24,915 nt of DNA from a virus. Below the pieces are notes generated by a model that worked only from the letters and a program-made list of their open reading frames with translations, made no database searches and was not told the DNA's origin. Each line of letters opens with the position of its first letter. The first letter of the stretch is position 1. Shown piece after piece: positions 15,403 to 21,982 of this stretch. The stretch spans positions 1 to 24,915 of IMG/VR virus record IMGVR_UViG_3300030331_005221; one strand, 5' to 3'. The position numbers and the translations under genes are program-made.

Positions 15403-17681
15403 TATACCTCTTCTTCAACTGGCAAGATAAAGTTATTATTATTTATTTCAACCGTATTATAATATGGATACAATTCAATGTCACCCGTATCCTTTATGGA
15501 TTTTGATTTTAATAATTCACTTCCAGAATAACCTCTATTATCAAAATCAAATAGGTCACCTGTGAAAAAATCAGCAGTTCCACCTAGTATCCTACCCAGT
15601 CCTCCACCTGATTTACCCTTCTTATTTTTACCATCAAAAACAGTAGTCTGACCATCAAAAGTTGAATATCCACGCACTTTAACCTCACCATTCTTATCTG
15701 TGTAAATAGCCTCTGCTGGAGTTCCTGACAATATAAGTTTCTGTTTCTGTACTTCATTATATTCTGGTGAATTAAATCCATATATGCTTATTGCTCTATC
15801 TTCTGCCTTCTCTAATTCTAGTCTCTTTAAATGTTTCTCAGCATCTGCTTGACTCATATTACCAGATGTTACTTTACCACCTTGCATAGTAGCACTCTCA
15901 CTGGTGCTACTAGTGCTAACTTCTCTACTAGATGATTTTTCCTGCTCTTCTTTTTTTAATTCTCTGGTTTTTTCTCTAGTTTGAGTTTTAGGTGTTTTAT
16001 TATTAAATATTGTTTCATAAAGACCAGCACCAATAGCATCACCTATAATTCCACCACCAATGGTGGTAAAGAGTGCAAAGGGCCCACCAATAATTGTTCC
16101 GATAAAACTACCTAGTGCTCCACCAGTTGCTCTAAAAGCTGCTTTTGCTGGTTTATCACCAAAAACAAACCAACTTATAAGAAAATCAAGAAACGCACCA
16201 ATAAAAGGTATGGACTTAAGTGGTCTCTTAATGATTTTTTTAAATATTGGAGTATTAAATGCTTTACGAAGACCACCCTTCTTTCCATCTCTAATGATTT
16301 TTACACCAATTTTTCTGAATTGATCAGTTAATGTTCTAAGTGGTAATTTTTTTCTATCTAATATGGGAACCTTAGTAAATTGTTGCCTTGGTGATGCTTT
16401 TAAGGGTAAAGATAATTGTCGTGTTGATCCTTTCAAGGGCAAAGATAATTGTTCAAAGGTACGTGGTAAAGTTGATGGAAGATTAAACGACCCAGTAGGA
16501 ACTTTTCTAAATTGTTGAACACCCTTGACAACTTTTCTTGATACCTCTGTGCCTCTTTTTTGAAAGAATTTACTTTTAAAGTTTACTTTAAAAATGGCTT
16601 TCCCAGTAATTGGATCAAATTTTGATAGTAAGTTCTCTGCTCTTGCTAACCCTGCTTTACCAAACACTCTTCTTGCTCTACTGTAACCAAATCTCTTTAC
16701 ATATCTGGCCACCGCCTCTGGTTTAACACTTTTACCACCAACTCTAACAAATCCACGAGTCACATTTGACAGTGCTCCCCCTCCTCCTCCTGCTCCAATA
16801 CCACGACCTACATTGCGAAAAGGAATTGTTCCAAGACGACCCCCTCTTGCTAATGTACGCAATCTACGAAGAAGATTGATAGAATTTTTTCCACCAACTA
16901 CCCCAATAATAGACGCTATAAGTGCTCCATTAATTGCAATTCTAAGAAGATTATTAAATTTTTCAACCTGAGGAATAAGACCATCTGCTTCTGTTTGTAT
17001 TCCAACTAATTCTCCTGCACGAGATACCAATGCTTGTGTCTGATCAACTCTTATAAAAACTTCATCTATGACATTAGCAATTGTGTTTAATACAAAACCA
17101 CCAAACTTTACAATCCCATCTACAGATTTTGCAAGCATTGTTCCAATCTCTGCAAGGGATGGAAGGAATGGAACAATTCTATTAAGAATAAATCCAGCTG
17201 CTAAGAAGGTGAGAAAATTAGTAATTGATTTAAAAATATTTCCTCCACCAGGAATCATCCCCTTTATAATCCCCAAAGGAGATCTAGACGGTTTATTCTC
17301 CTCTTGTTGTTCTTCCCTTAACCTTCTCCTCTCATCTGCTTTTTGTTTTCTTTTATCTAAAAATTCTTTAAATGCTAGAGACGATCTAAGTTTAAATATA
17401 CCAAATATTAATTTTAATTTTTCTATGGTATCTTTTATATTTCCATCTTTAGAAGATCCGTCACCCTCAGGTGTTAAAGATTTAATTAAAGTTGGACTTA
17501 CCATAGTCCTTCTAATTATGTCAGTCTTAGGACTTGATATTTTTTCTTTTTTCTCGTCAACATTCATCCCCATCATTTTTCTGACAGAGGATCTTCTCTC
17601 TTCAATTTTTTTCTTCTTTTTTGGGTCTCTAGACTTTACTATATTTTTAGCTAGAAACAAACCAGTTGAAAGTATTCCCAT
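15402..17681 (-). CDS. second tape-measure/hub-associated protein with glycine-zipper region
   Basis: 759 aa, very basic. An N-terminal Lys/Arg/Glu helical region spans 1-130. Hydrophobic stretches lie at about 150-210 and 245-265. A Gly-rich hinge (IGAGGGGGALSN) is near 295-306, and two adjacent 11-residue repeats (LSLPLKGSTRQ, LSLPLKASPRQ) occupy 412-433. Residues 516-558 (TGGALGSFIGTIIGGPF, IGGGIIGDAIGAGLYE) form a glycine-zipper segment of the kind found in proteins that insert into host membranes. A charged Ser/Glu linker and a hydrophilic C-terminus follow. It overlaps both neighbours by TAATG. Position and composition suggest a gp29-type hub or tape protein that could be ejected to help DNA cross the inner membrane. 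No family motif settles this. Confidence 0.6.
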   Translation of the reverse strand: MGILSTGLFLAKNIVKSRDPKKKKKIEERRSSVRKMMGMNVDEKKEKISSPKTDIIRRTMVSPTLIKSLTPEGDGSSKDGNIKDTIEKLKLIFGIFKLRSSLAFKEFLDKRKQKADERRRLREEQQEENKPSRSPLGIIKGMIPGGGNIFKSITNFLTFLAAGFILNRIVPFLPSLAEIGTMLAKSVDGIVKFGGFVLNTIANVIDEVFIRVDQTQALVSRAGELVGIQTEADGLIPQVEKFNNLLRIAINGALIASIIGVVGGKNSINLLRRLRTLARGGRLGTIPFRNVGRGIGAGGGGGALSNVTRGFVRVGGKSVKPEAVARYVKRFGYSRARRVFGKAGLARAENLLSKFDPITGKAIFKVNFKSKFFQKRGTEVSRKVVKGVQQFRKVPTGSFNLPSTLPRTFEQLSLPLKGSTRQLSLPLKASPRQQFTKVPILDRKKLPLRTLTDQFRKIGVKIIRDGKKGGLRKAFNTPIFKKIIKRPLKSIPFIGAFLDFLISWFVFGDKPAKAAFRATGGALGSFIGTIIGGPFALFTTIGGGIIGDAIGAGLYETIFNNKTPKTQTREKTRELKKEEQEKSSSREVSTSSTSESATMQGGKVTSGNMSQADAEKHLKRLELEKAEDRAISIYGFNSPEYNEVQKQKLILSGTPAEAIYTDKNGEVKVRGYSTFDGQTTVFDGKNKKGKSGGGLGRILGGTADFFTGDLFDFDNRGYSGSELLKSKSIKDTGDIELYPYYNTVEINNNNFILPVEEEV

Positions 17682-19882
17682 TATGTCACCGATAATCCGC
17701 TATCTAATCCTAAAGCCATAAGTGTCATAGATCTTCTTGGAGAGATAGTTGTAATGTCAAAATATGGGAGTGTGCTCTCTCTTTCTTGAATTGTATCTTT
17801 TGGTTTTGATCTTCCTTTAATAGCAGGTAAAACAATAGTCTGATTGTTTACTGATACTATAGGAGGAGATATGGGAACACCCTTTGTGGATTCCTCTTTT
17901 AAAATTGACTCTATAAATGTTGCTTTCTTAACAGGGGAATCTCCTGGCTTTGGTAAATCTTTTGGTGGTGGAGAGAATTTCTTCCCTTTAAATGGGTCTT
18001 CAAATTCCTGATATGGTGATCCACCTTTTCCTGTTGCTAAAGATACCAACGATGCTAATATCATTGATCCTTTTTGTCTTATATTTCCAGTTCTATCTCC
18101 ATCATTAAAATTAGATATAGAATTAAATAAATTAGAAACTAAACCACCACCCTTAAAGTTTTGATAAGTATTAACTAATCCACCGCCCTTAAAGTTTTGA
18201 TTAAAGTAACTAAAACCTTTTACAGTATTATCAGAATTTATTAAATTATTCTCTTGCATCATTTGCAGAGTAGCAGCACGTTCTTTAGCATTAGAAACTG
18301 CCTGTGCATCACTAGTTTGTAGTATCGGATAAAGAGTTGCAGCATCAATACCAGATGTTCCATTAATAATACTTTCTATAGTTGTTCCTTGAGGTAATTG
18401 AGAAAGAATTTGATCTTGATTCGCATAAAGATCTTCGAGTTTAATAGAACCTTGAGTTTTTTCTCTAGTCTTCGTTCTTGTTATTTCATCTCCCTTTACC
18501 ACTTTTTCTGTAGTAAATTTCTTTAAACTATAAACTAATTCCTCTCCTCCATCCATTCCTCTAACCCCATCCATTCCTCTAATAACACCACCACCTTCAT
18601 TATATTTACCCTTTCCTCTACTAAACGTTGGTTTATTAGTTCCACCACCAGCAGCATTCATACTCTCTAACATATTAACACCATACTTTTGAACTGCTCC
18701 TTTGCTCATGATAAACTCACCAGGAGTTAACATCGCAGGGACTGTATCCTTATTACCAAATCCAGGAACTTTTCCACCTTTATTAAATTCTTGAGTTTCC
18801 TCCCCTCGACTCTCTCCCATCAGGTTTTTTAGTTGCTCAGCTTCGGGACCACCACTAGTTGTAAAAGATTGAGAAGTTCTTTCTGTTATTGCACCAGTAT
18901 CTTCTCCTATTGCACCAGTATCTTCTCCTATTGCACCAGTATCTTCTCCTATTGCACCAGTATCTTCTCCTTCCCCTATGATTTTCTGTGTTGATTGATT
19001 CTGTGCATTTGATAAATTTTCTACCTCTTTATTTTTACTCAACTTATCATTAAGTAGTAATCCTCCTCCCACCAAAAGAGTGGCTGCCGCAGCAGCCGCA
19101 TAAGGATTCGCTGCTATCAAAGCAATCAATTTTGGTATCGCAAACGCTAATGTTTGTACCATACCTCTAATCAAAAATCTTACAGGTGATAAAAGAGTGA
19201 GACCTAAAGCTATTAAAGCAGGATAAAAGTTTCCTACAAATCTTCCTATTGCTTCTACTTTTCTTTTATTATTTGGATCACTAAACCAAGAGAGAACCTT
19301 ATTGATAAGATATCCTATGACAGTCGCTGATAAAAAGTTAGTTATTCTGTCAATAATATCCTCAAAAGGTTTTACTAATGAGGAGGTTAATTTTTTAGCG
19401 ACCCCTAAACTAGATTTTTTAATTTTTTCTAAATTTTTTTCTCTGTTTATTCTCCTCTGTCTTTGTTCATCTTTATCATCTTGTCTATCTTGATTTTTTT
19501 CCCTTTTAAAATCTAAAGAAATTACTTTTAAGATAGCGTCCAAAATATTGTTAACTCTTCCAAAATCTTGTTTTTGAGAATCCTCCTCTTGTGCTGCTGG
19601 CAAGAGTGATTTAGGATTCACTCTATTTGCAGATACCGATCTTCTAGAAAATAATTTATCAACATTTACTCTCCTTCTTTTTTCTCTGAGTGCCTTGAGT
19701 TCATCTCTTAGTATTATTGACCTTGGACTGTCTCCCTGATTGGCAACCTCAAGAGTATTAATACCCTCAACCAACGCAGACATGTATGTTTTCTCTGCAT
19801 TATCAACAGCATAAACATCTACTGGTTCTATTCCAAGATCCAATAGAATTTTTGAAATTTCTGGTTTAGCAGTTACTGCCAT
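17681..19882 (-). CDS. tape measure protein (gp29-equivalent candidate)
   Basis: 733 aa. Residues 366-410 carry the best diagnostic, the tape-measure motif GKVPGFGNKDTVPAMLTPGE followed by KGAVQKYGVNMLESMNAAGG. Upstream are a charged helical region (about 105-165), hydrophobic segments (175-200, 220-275) and an Ala run (261-267). Three tandem repeats interrupt the protein: four copies of GEDTGAI, two of RGMDGV/G, and an imperfect QNFKGGGLV pair. It lies directly downstream of the gp26/gp51-like chaperone pair, the usual place for a tape measure, and begins by a TAATG overlap with the latter. It would set tail length and later leave through the tube. It is not recognisably homologous to T4 gp29 by eye, so the name is by role and position. 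Confidence 0.7.
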   Translation of the reverse strand: MAVTAKPEISKILLDLGIEPVDVYAVDNAEKTYMSALVEGINTLEVANQGDSPRSIILRDELKALREKRRRVNVDKLFSRRSVSANRVNPKSLLPAAQEEDSQKQDFGRVNNILDAILKVISLDFKREKNQDRQDDKDEQRQRRINREKNLEKIKKSSLGVAKKLTSSLVKPFEDIIDRITNFLSATVIGYLINKVLSWFSDPNNKRKVEAIGRFVGNFYPALIALGLTLLSPVRFLIRGMVQTLAFAIPKLIALIAANPYAAAAAATLLVGGGLLLNDKLSKNKEVENLSNAQNQSTQKIIGEGEDTGAIGEDTGAIGEDTGAIGEDTGAITERTSQSFTTSGGPEAEQLKNLMGESRGEETQEFNKGGKVPGFGNKDTVPAMLTPGEFIMSKGAVQKYGVNMLESMNAAGGGTNKPTFSRGKGKYNEGGGVIRGMDGVRGMDGGEELVYSLKKFTTEKVVKGDEITRTKTREKTQGSIKLEDLYANQDQILSQLPQGTTIESIINGTSGIDAATLYPILQTSDAQAVSNAKERAATLQMMQENNLINSDNTVKGFSYFNQNFKGGGLVNTYQNFKGGGLVSNLFNSISNFNDGDRTGNIRQKGSMILASLVSLATGKGGSPYQEFEDPFKGKKFSPPPKDLPKPGDSPVKKATFIESILKEESTKGVPISPPIVSVNNQTIVLPAIKGRSKPKDTIQERESTLPYFDITTISPRRSMTLMALGLDSGLSVT
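18138..18201 (-). repeat. imperfect 36-bp-period repeat (QNFKGGGLV twice)
   Basis: Two 28-bp near-identical segments (18138-18165 and 18174-18201, two mismatches) lie 36 bp apart inside the tape-measure gene. They encode QNFKGGGLV-NTY-QNFKGGGLV and keep the reading frame. Confidence 0.9.
18549..18582 (-). repeat. 18-bp-period tandem repeat (RGMDG twice)
   Basis: A 16-bp identical segment (18549-18564 and 18567-18582) repeats with an 18-bp period in the tape-measure gene. It encodes IRGMDGVRGMDGG and is in frame. Confidence 0.85.
18888..18971 (-). repeat. four perfect 21-bp tandem repeats (GEDTGAI x4)
   Basis: The 21-bp unit, beginning attgcaccagtatc on the plus strand, occurs four times without a mismatch. 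It encodes four GEDTGAI heptapeptides at residues about 305-332 of the tape-measure protein. Perfect identity including third positions points to recent expansion by slippage or unequal recombination. The acidic, flexible unit lies between the hydrophobic segment and the tape-measure motif. Confidence 0.97.
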
Positions 19883-20055
19883 TACATTGATGCTTGTTGT
19901 TGCTGTTGTCTAAGTTTTTCTTCTTCTAGATGTGCTCTGAGTAACTCAACATAGACATCCCGTTCCCACGGCATCATATTTTCAATCTCAGTTAATGAGT
20001 ATTTATGATACTGCATCAAAGAAAAGTTTAATTTAAAATAATTCTCTAGATCCAT
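19882..20055 (-). CDS. gp51-like / T-like tail assembly chaperone domain (57 aa)
   Basis: A short ORF, MDLENYFKLNFSLMQYHKYS followed by LTEIENMMPWERDVYVELL, then a charged helix with a Gln run and stop. Helical character, the 'LMQYHKYSL.EI..M.PWER..Y' pattern and position between gp26 and the tape measure match the small second chaperone of tailed phages: lambda gpT type, called gp51 (hub assembly catalyst) in T4-like phages. No Shine-Dalgarno precedes the ATG, and that ATG is partly buried in a hairpin. The frame is open upstream into the gp26 slippery heptamer, so it may be made mainly as a -1 frameshift extension of gp26, about 301 residues in total. Its stop overlaps the tape-measure start (TAATG). 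T4 gp51 is much longer, so that equation is tentative. Confidence 0.75.
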   Translation of the reverse strand: MDLENYFKLNFSLMQYHKYSLTEIENMMPWERDVYVELLRAHLEEEKLRQQQQQASM

Positions 20056-20079
20056 GTGGACTAGAGCTATCCGAAAAAA
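20044..20079 (-). promoter_or_regulatory. candidate programmed -1 ribosomal frameshift signal at the gp26/gp51-like junction
   Basis: On the minus strand the gp26 codons end AGT TTT TTC GGA TAG, which contains the canonical heptamer T_TTT_TTC (20079-20073). A 6-nt spacer (20072-20067) includes the zero-frame TAG. A hairpin follows: CTCTAGTCC, loop ACAT, GGA-T-CTAGAG (20066-20044), 9 bp with one bulged T. A -1 slip continues as R-I-A-L-V-H into the ATG at 20055 and the whole gp51-like frame without a stop. Confidence 0.7.
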
Positions 20080-20786
20080 CTTGTTAACCCTTCCAAAACT
20101 ACCTCATTTTTAACTTTGGTGTTTGGATTAGTAATTGTCACTGTGTGAGATAGTTTGGGCATGGTCTCAAAAAATTTCTCAATATCTTTAAATTGAGAGG
20201 AGTTCATAGACTCAAGAAATGAATTTACTTCTTTCTTGGTGCAGTCAGATGTAGTCCAAACCTCTTCTTCATTATAAATTTTATCCATACAAGATGCAAT
20301 CAATTCAAAGGATTGATCCATAACATTGTCTTCCTTGAAATCAAAATTATTTTTTATAAACTCATCTAATGAGGGATACTTCATTTCCATCATCAAATTA
20401 TCATCTAATTTAATTTTATTAGTATGATTTTCATCCCTCTGTATGGCGATATCATCAATAGCGATTGTCACTGGCACAGATGTTTTTCCATCATCAGGGC
20501 AAATTACATTTACCTCAATATCCTCCCCTACAGATTTTCCTCTAATGTTTAAAAAGAGATATTCAATATCAAATGTTGGGAGGGTTTCTATTTTAACACC
20601 CTTGGTTAAAACACATGACTTAAGAACATTTTTTATGGCCGTCGTCATCTCTTTTGTATTCTCACTTTCTAGTGCAAGAACTAGAAGTTTTTCCTCCTTA
20701 ACTAAAAATGGTCTATATTGAATAGTCTTTCCAGTTGATGGTAATTCCAACTCATAAGTTGGTGTTGCAATTTTTGGTAATGGCAT
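20067..20786 (-). CDS. 26: baseplate hub / tail assembly chaperone gp26
   Basis: 239 aa. The N-terminus MPLPKIATPTYELELPSTGK, then QYRPFLVKEEKLLVLALES, is the signature of the T4 gp26 family (T4_baseplate). Further conserved features are an acidic middle with the NVICPDDGK segment and a C-terminal helical part ending EGLTSFFG. T4 gp26 (208 aa) is needed for hub assembly. By position ahead of the tape measure it corresponds to the gpG-type chaperone that coats the tape before tube assembly. A GATAAATA late promoter lies 22 bp upstream. The last codons form a slippery heptamer that could extend the product into the gp51-like frame. Confidence 0.87.
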   Translation of the reverse strand: MPLPKIATPTYELELPSTGKTIQYRPFLVKEEKLLVLALESENTKEMTTAIKNVLKSCVLTKGVKIETLPTFDIEYLFLNIRGKSVGEDIEVNVICPDDGKTSVPVTIAIDDIAIQRDENHTNKIKLDDNLMMEMKYPSLDEFIKNNFDFKEDNVMDQSFELIASCMDKIYNEEEVWTTSDCTKKEVNSFLESMNSSQFKDIEKFFETMPKLSHTVTITNPNTKVKNEVVLEGLTSFFG

Positions 20787-20807: not shown

Positions 20808-20815
20808 TATTTATC
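20808..20815 (-). promoter_or_regulatory. T4-type late promoter, GATAAATA, for gp26
   Basis: The minus strand reads TGATAAATA. Its TGA is the stop codon of the tail-tube-fold gene, so the promoter is embedded in the gene end. It lies 22 bp upstream of the gp26 ATG. It is the same variant as the promoter at 5612-5619. Confidence 0.6.
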
Positions 20816-21497
20816 AAGCAACTCCAGCAGTGCTCCCAGCTAAATCATTAGCACCAATTGTTTCATCTGTTGGTAGTTCTGATAGTGTCCTAACATAATA
20901 GCGAGAAAAATTAAAATTAACAGTGCATCTTAATAATTGAGAAGCATCATAAGTAACAGGCATTGAATTTATACTAATAGGATATGCTTTTTCAAAAGTA
21001 TATTGTAGAAAACCACCATAATCTTTTTCAAATTTATTGATATAAACTTTGCCTTGATATTGTATAGGAAATTTAACTCTATAATTATAATCAGGTCTTC
21101 CTAATTCACTCGTAGATCTTTCACTATAATTATCATTATCAGGATCATTAACAATATATCCAATATATTTTTCAAAAAAAGTTATCAAATGATAATCAGT
21201 ATCAACATAAAAAGTAAATGAGGAGGTTGCATCATACTGTCTTCTATATGCATGTCTCTCAGTAACACCAGTTGCATCATTAAACATCTCATGAGTTGCT
21301 AATGAGGTTCCTGGTAGTGCTGCCTCCGTGCAAGATAAGGATATGAATTCACCATCTCTTTCCTTAAATTTTAAATCATTTTGAATTAAGTCAACAGGAG
21401 CCGCAAACCAACATTGATAATGTGATGTGAGTGCAGGTCGTAAAATACTTGACTTTAAATCCGATAAGATTTTTTTATTTGGCCGTGGTGTTGGCAT
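20814..21497 (-). CDS. tail-tube-fold protein (gp19/gp54-like, tube initiator candidate)
   Basis: 227 aa. The pattern fits the tail-tube fold: LTSHYQCWFAAPVDLIQND, then SCTEAALPGTSL, an AYRRQYDATSSFTFYVDTDY strand pair, HLITFFEKYIGYI, and a long C-terminal sheet (YTFEKAYPISINSMPVTYDA, then TVNFNFSRYYV). These elements recur in gp19-like tube proteins and in gp54, which starts tube growth on the baseplate. Because it is encoded with hub and chaperone genes rather than beside a sheath gene, I favour a hub or initiator role. The start lies 32 bp from the divergent gp4 start. No good Shine-Dalgarno sequence or late promoter is visible on this strand. Confidence 0.6.
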   Translation of the reverse strand: MPTPRPNKKILSDLKSSILRPALTSHYQCWFAAPVDLIQNDLKFKERDGEFISLSCTEAALPGTSLATHEMFNDATGVTERHAYRRQYDATSSFTFYVDTDYHLITFFEKYIGYIVNDPDNDNYSERSTSELGRPDYNYRVKFPIQYQGKVYINKFEKDYGGFLQYTFEKAYPISINSMPVTYDASQLLRCTVNFNFSRYYVRTLSELPTDETIGANDLAGSTAGVA

Positions 21498-21506
21498 CTA
21501 TAAATA
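21498..21506 (+). promoter_or_regulatory. perfect T4-type late promoter, C-TATAAATA, for gp4
   Basis: CTATAAATA lies directly beside the start codon of the divergent tube-fold gene and 23 bp upstream of the gp4 ATG. It matches the T4 late consensus exactly. With the usual start about 10 bp downstream, it leaves only a short leader. Confidence 0.75.
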
Positions 21507-21529
21507 TTACTACTGATATATTATGTATA

Positions 21530-21982
21530 ATGGGAGAAAGTAAAAAGAGTTTATTCAAACCCTCTTTTCCCAAAAAATACAAGGGAAATCCAAATAATAT
21601 TATATGTCGCAGCACTTGGGAAACCAAATTCTGCAACTATTGTGATCTAAATGAGAATGTTCTTGAATGGGGTAGTGAAGAGTTTTATATTAAATATGTT
21701 TCTCCTATTGATAATCGAATGCATCGTTATTATCCTGACTTTATTATCAAAGTAAAAGAAAGCACTGGTCAGATTAAAACCTATGTGATTGAGGTAAAAC
21801 CCAAGAAACAAACTCGACCTCCTAAGAAAAGAAAAAAAGTGACTCAATCCTATCTTTATGAATGCAAAACCTACGCTGTTAACACGGCTAAATGGGCAGC
21901 AGCAAGAGATTTTTGTAATGATAGAAAAATTGAATTTAAAATCATCACCGAACAAGAGCTAGGAATATATCATGGAAGATGA
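21530..21982 (+). CDS. 4: head completion protein gp4, PD-(D/E)xK / TnsA-like nuclease fold
   Basis: 150 aa from the ATG at 21530, the same length as T4 gp4. The sequence FPKKYKGNPNNIICRSTWE, ENVLEWGSEEFYIKYVSPID, RMHRYYPDFII and TYVIEVKPKKQTRPP is diagnostic of the gp4/gp50 head-completion family. Glu31, Asp70 of the PD pair, and Glu88-x-Lys90 form a complete PD-(D/E)xK set, as in TnsA-like nucleases. In T4 gp4 is needed for maturation of DNA-filled heads and tail joining. An earlier in-frame ATG at 21431 would overlap the divergent gene and the late promoter and would add a non-homologous hydrophobic leader, so I rejected it. The gene overlaps the next by 11 nt. Confidence 0.9.
   Translation: MGESKKSLFKPSFPKKYKGNPNNIICRSTWETKFCNYCDLNENVLEWGSEEFYIKYVSPIDNRMHRYYPDFIIKVKESTGQIKTYVIEVKPKKQTRPPKKRKKVTQSYLYECKTYAVNTAKWAAARDFCNDRKIEFKIITEQELGIYHGR

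Follow-up and report, generated by a model that had tools for sequence, protein, structure and literature searches.

The window analysed here, the whole 24,915-nucleotide stretch of IMG/VR virus record IMGVR_UViG_3300030331_005221, belongs to a marine T4-like phage related to cyanophages and very probably specifies two tail assembly chaperones on a single message, of which a short form (TAC-N) would be extended to a long form (TAC-NC) by −1 ribosomal frameshifting. A programmed −1 frameshift had been proposed in a sequence-only reading of this DNA, and it is supported by the slippery heptamer, its register, the open −1 frame, selection on the codons before the downstream ATG, the loss of that ATG in relatives and a covarying hairpin. 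The junction elements are all on the minus strand, a point that the earlier reading had left unstated in an otherwise accurate description of heptamer, spacer, hairpin and frame.

The 0-frame product, gp26 or TAC-N (20067–20786), is a 239-aa member of the T4_baseplate family (PF12322, E = 4.8e-76; phrog_150, E = 6.8e-81). Its last codons, read directly from the sequence, are AGT TTT TTC GGA TAG. The heptamer T_TTT_TTC (20079–20073; 0-frame codons AGT TTT TTC) is in the X_XXY_YYZ register and is followed by the 6-nt spacer GGATAG (20072–20067), which contains the 0-frame stop TAG (20067–20069), both as had been proposed. The −1 frame has a stop at 20106 and is then open through a 57-aa ORF (20055–19882) to 19882. 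The −1-frame extension, TAC-C (19882–20073), consists of RIALVH and this ORF, 63 aa plus the stop, and is homologous to T4 gp51; it matches phrog_634 (E = 2e-29) and also the C-terminus of phrog_150. The fusion product therefore has 238 + 63 = 301 residues, in agreement with the length of about 301 first suggested, and reads ..GLTSFFR, then IALVHMDLENYFK, across the junction.

The short and long forms share their N-terminal domain and are encoded between a tail-tube-like gene and a weak tape-measure match. The upstream tail-tube-like protein (20814–21497, minus strand) matches PF23849 (E = 1.7e-13) and the tail tube family phrog_45 (E = 6.2e-30). Downstream, the start codon of a 733-aa gene (17681–19882, minus strand) overlaps the TAC-C stop; this gene is a weak tape-measure candidate through phrog_37649 (E = 2.3e-6) and otherwise by position only. 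It carries a tandem GAIGEDT repeat of about four copies. A separate observation concerns positions 21431–21982 of the window, which encode a protein with a TnsA-like endonuclease fold and a match to phrog_218, a head closure (gp4-like) family.

Comparison of the junction across phages, which the sequence-only reading had advised, found the heptamer, its register and the −1 offset to be conserved, and a 3′ structure to be present in clade-specific form. The comparison covered 366 readable junctions, gathered in six protein-guided scans and from a number of named phages, one locus being truncated. An in-frame TTTTTTC or TTTTTTT is found at the junction in 365 of 366 loci, and in 363 of 366 relatives it is located 0–24 nt upstream of the stop and is accompanied by a homologous −1-frame domain. 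In-frame heptamers of this kind occur only 7 times in 42,707 other gp26 codons. Loss of the heptamer or of the −1 frame was looked for in close relatives; both are kept in all 80 of the nearest, with TTTTTTC at the identical offset. Among 183 diverse representatives, with similarity below 85%, the codon preceding the Phe pair is AGT, TCT, GAT, AAT, GCT, GGT, CAT or ACT, such that the residue varies (Ser, Asp, Asn, Ala, Gly, His, Thr) and the third base is always T. The Phe pair itself is encoded as TTT TTC at the junction in 158 of these 183, compared with 13 of the 179 Phe-Phe pairs that these genes contain at other positions. On these counts, the junction heptamer is not due to chance.

A few loci depart from this pattern. 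In S-SCSM1 (L085, 1915–1945) the heptamer is intact, but 11 additional nucleotides follow the stop, disrupting the −1 frame and placing gp51 in a +1 relation to gp26; this insertion is either a sequencing error or a real loss. VAP7, Vibrio K361 and K474, and Serratia Kevin maintain the −1 relation without the canonical heptamer. VAP7 and Kevin carry GTTTTT or GTTTTC in place of T_TTT_TTC, and in K361, K474 and VAP7 an ATG overlaps the stop. For the Vibrio and Ackermannviridae loci that lack the heptamer (L090, L373, L374 and L376), a different slip site or reinitiation may have taken over.

In GenBank, gp26 and gp51 are annotated as separate genes for P-SSM2 and S-PM2, and in most of the window clade an ATG sits 11 nt past the gp26 stop, from which gp51 could be translated by reinitiation after this nearby stop. 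Such a two-gene arrangement does not account for the codons upstream of the ATG, which show the constraint of a −1-frame protein. In 130 representatives from three clades, the six codons between slip site and ATG contain no −1-frame stops, and pN/pS for this stretch is 0.37–0.48 in the −1 frame, against 0.78–1.37 in frame 0 and more than 2 in frame +1. By this measure, the stretch leading from the slip site to the start of the 57-aa ORF evolves as −1-frame protein. As its codons are read in this frame only if the frame shifts, they point to a frameshift rather than a separate gene.

The ATG is also missing in over half of the diverse representatives: none precedes the conserved core in 99 of 183 (S-SCSM1 among the 99), and 72 of 183 have none of ATG, GTG or TTG there. 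The gp51 of S-WAM1, S-CAM4 and Cronobacter S13 is unannotated, yet encoded in the −1 frame; the lack of annotation of the gp51-like segment (L082, L083 and L089) is apparently due to the lack of a start codon. In the window clade the ATG lies within the hairpin in 44 of 47 relatives, and Shine-Dalgarno-like tetramers are found upstream of it in 3 of the 44 that have it. These numbers accord with two earlier remarks, that the 57-aa ORF has no Shine-Dalgarno sequence and that its ATG is overlapped by the hairpin (hairpin 20066–20044, ORF from 20055). As most members of the window clade carry this ATG in the hairpin, TAC-C might to some extent also be produced on its own. Reinitiation as the source of gp51 would leave the heptamer with no reason to be kept, and we consider it very improbable.

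The putative 3′ stimulatory stem-loop of the frameshift site (20044–20066, minus strand) begins 6 nt after the heptamer and has the sequence CTCTAGTCC-ACAT-GGA(T)CTAGAG. Folding and covariation bear out the 9-bp hairpin with an ACAT loop that had been described, and add a one-base bulge. The 42 nt after the heptamer fold with −11.3 kcal/mol, and a 76-nt segment of the window taken alone is modestly more stable than its shuffles (z −1.7). Clade averages were calculated for the 45 nt starting 3 nt past the heptamer, with the 45 nt just upstream as a control. The mean folding z is −2.0 for the window clade (47), −3.7 for the S-PM2 scan (28), −1.4 for the pelagiphage scan (55) and −1.0 for the others (53), and is close to 0 in the control. 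Across the 47 relatives of the window clade, 89% of cells form the five inner pairs, and each of these pairs shows double changes, with 27 doubly changed cells compared with 5.1 in shuffles, an imperfect control as part of the hairpin region is also protein-coding. The window-clade structure outscores all slid versions, and RNAalifold agrees.

Other clades form different stems at the same place. The window clade has a hairpin that is both stable and covarying; that of clade B is stable, and those of the others are weaker, being weak in some pelagiphage and distant loci. The structure lies within 5–10 nt of the heptamer, as programmed −1 frameshifting calls for. The chances are roughly even that the downstream stimulator is a conserved, repeatedly remodelled RNA element, which beside a fixed heptamer would place the TAC-N:TAC-NC ratio under strong selection. 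Each clade would then carry a stem-loop of its own sequence and shape about 6–10 nt after U_UUU_UUC, and the group of T4 would have met the same ratio problem by gene duplication. These clade-specific hairpins may be undescribed so far.

The run of 6 to 8 T present at every junction could also be a site of transcriptional slippage, giving mRNAs one base longer or two shorter in which the frames are fused without ribosomal frameshifting, and T7–T8 variants could add some product in this way. However, a run of T6 ending in C is short for slippage by RNA polymerase, and the invariant codon register, the preference for C as the last base (158 of 183) and a covarying hairpin at a distance suited to ribosomes are all signals directed at the ribosome. 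Transcriptional slippage as the origin of the fusion is thus extremely unlikely.

The assignment of the two domains follows from comparison with T4. Pfam places both T4 gp26 and T4 gp51 in T4_baseplate (PF12322), as it does gp26 of the window. T4 gp26 matches the TAC-N part of a profile of the fusion (E 9e-21). T4 gp51 matches the fusion profile (E 2e-12) and, through its residues 207–245, the TAC-C profile (E 8e-7), and phrog_150 covers the whole of T4 gp51, C-terminus included; shuffled decoys gave no match to the fusion or TAC-C profiles. By these matches, T4 gp26 is a TAC-N, and T4 gp51 is a paralogous TAC-N with the same C-terminal domain, made from a separate gene. Genes 26 and 51 of T4 are separate and on opposite strands, so no frameshift can join them. 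The proposal that gp26 is fused to a gp51-like domain is supported as regards the fusion, but the 57-aa piece corresponds only to the C-terminal domain of T4 gp51. Since T4 gp51 is a full gp26 paralogue plus this domain, the arrangement is better described as an extension of TAC-N to TAC-NC than as a fusion of gp26 to gp51.

AlphaFold2 models of both domains are confident, with a pLDDT of 87 for TAC-N and a mean of 90 for TAC-C, which is helical. The highest Foldseek probability for the TAC-N model among the PDB matches listed is that of the HK97 tail assembly chaperone (gp13, 2ob9), although with a probability of 0.75 and E = 1.1 the match is not significant. A Foldseek search with the TAC-C model returned nothing significant, a PDB sequence search with the TAC-N and TAC-C profiles nothing meaningful, and Pfam only chance-level matches to TAC-C members.

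We infer the slippage itself and its rate from the junction sequences, and likewise infer a chaperone role for TAC-N and TAC-NC. Most ribosomes would terminate at the TAG to give TAC-N. A minority, pausing while tRNA-Phe occupies UUU and UUC of U_UUU_UUC and aided by the hairpin 6 nt further on, would move back by one base and continue in the −1 frame, producing TAC-NC. If lambda gpG/gpGT is a guide, many copies of TAC-N may coat the tape measure protein, and the few of TAC-NC may recruit tail tube or hub subunits via the extra helical domain.

This reading mends a common misannotation, as ‘gene 51’ in hundreds of cyanophage and pelagiphage genomes would be the −1-frame tail of a chaperone. 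It also relates T4 genes 26 and 51, long listed as a baseplate hub component and a hub assembly catalyst, to lambda G/GT. The natural junctions, with their differing hairpins, are a good resource on how the short-to-long ratio is tuned.

A search of the open literature gave no relevant gp26/gp51 frameshift under those names, the system being described under ‘tail assembly chaperone’. The abstract of the 2022 study that identified the T4-like TAC genes reportedly describes frameshifting as conserved in several T4-like groups, and T4's group as having separate genes 26 and 51. As credited in later papers, the TAC genes of T4-like phages were identified by Vladimirov, Gautam & Davidson (2022, Virology 566:9–15; PMC12846349, PMC10885494), together with poly-T signals for frameshifting within T4-like TAC-N (PMC12846349) and separate short and long TAC genes in some T4-like phages (PMC10885494). 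So credited, these are the same genes, with the same short and long forms, as in the window. The sequence-only reading knew of no described frameshift here, whereas on these accounts the T4-like arrangement had in kind been reported in 2022; in a 2016 review T4 was still excluded from the G-T frameshift rule (PMC5009743). The finding in the window is real and correctly read but, with T4-like TAC genes and poly-T signals published, known in kind. What may be added here is how deeply the junction is conserved, along with the covarying hairpins particular to each clade.

T4 uses two genes, one short and one long, where the window phage has a single gene with a slip site. Lambda uses the heptamer G_GGA_AAG. 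As in lambda gpG/gpGT, the −1 shift of the window phage would occur shortly before the short chaperone gene ends, in a locus flanked by a tail-tube-like gene and a tape-measure candidate; in lambda, where the neighbours are the tail tube and tape measure genes, the long form gpGT is made in the minority (PMC5009743). In contrast to lambda, a 3′ hairpin is a prominent feature of the window clade; sequence homology to lambda is not expected. A −1 frameshift at a poly-T motif is likewise conserved in the TAC locus of the Vandenendeviridae and Andersonviridae, where the −1 frame is also uninterrupted and the motif is GTTTTT in place of the T_TTT_TTC of the window phage (PMC12846349).
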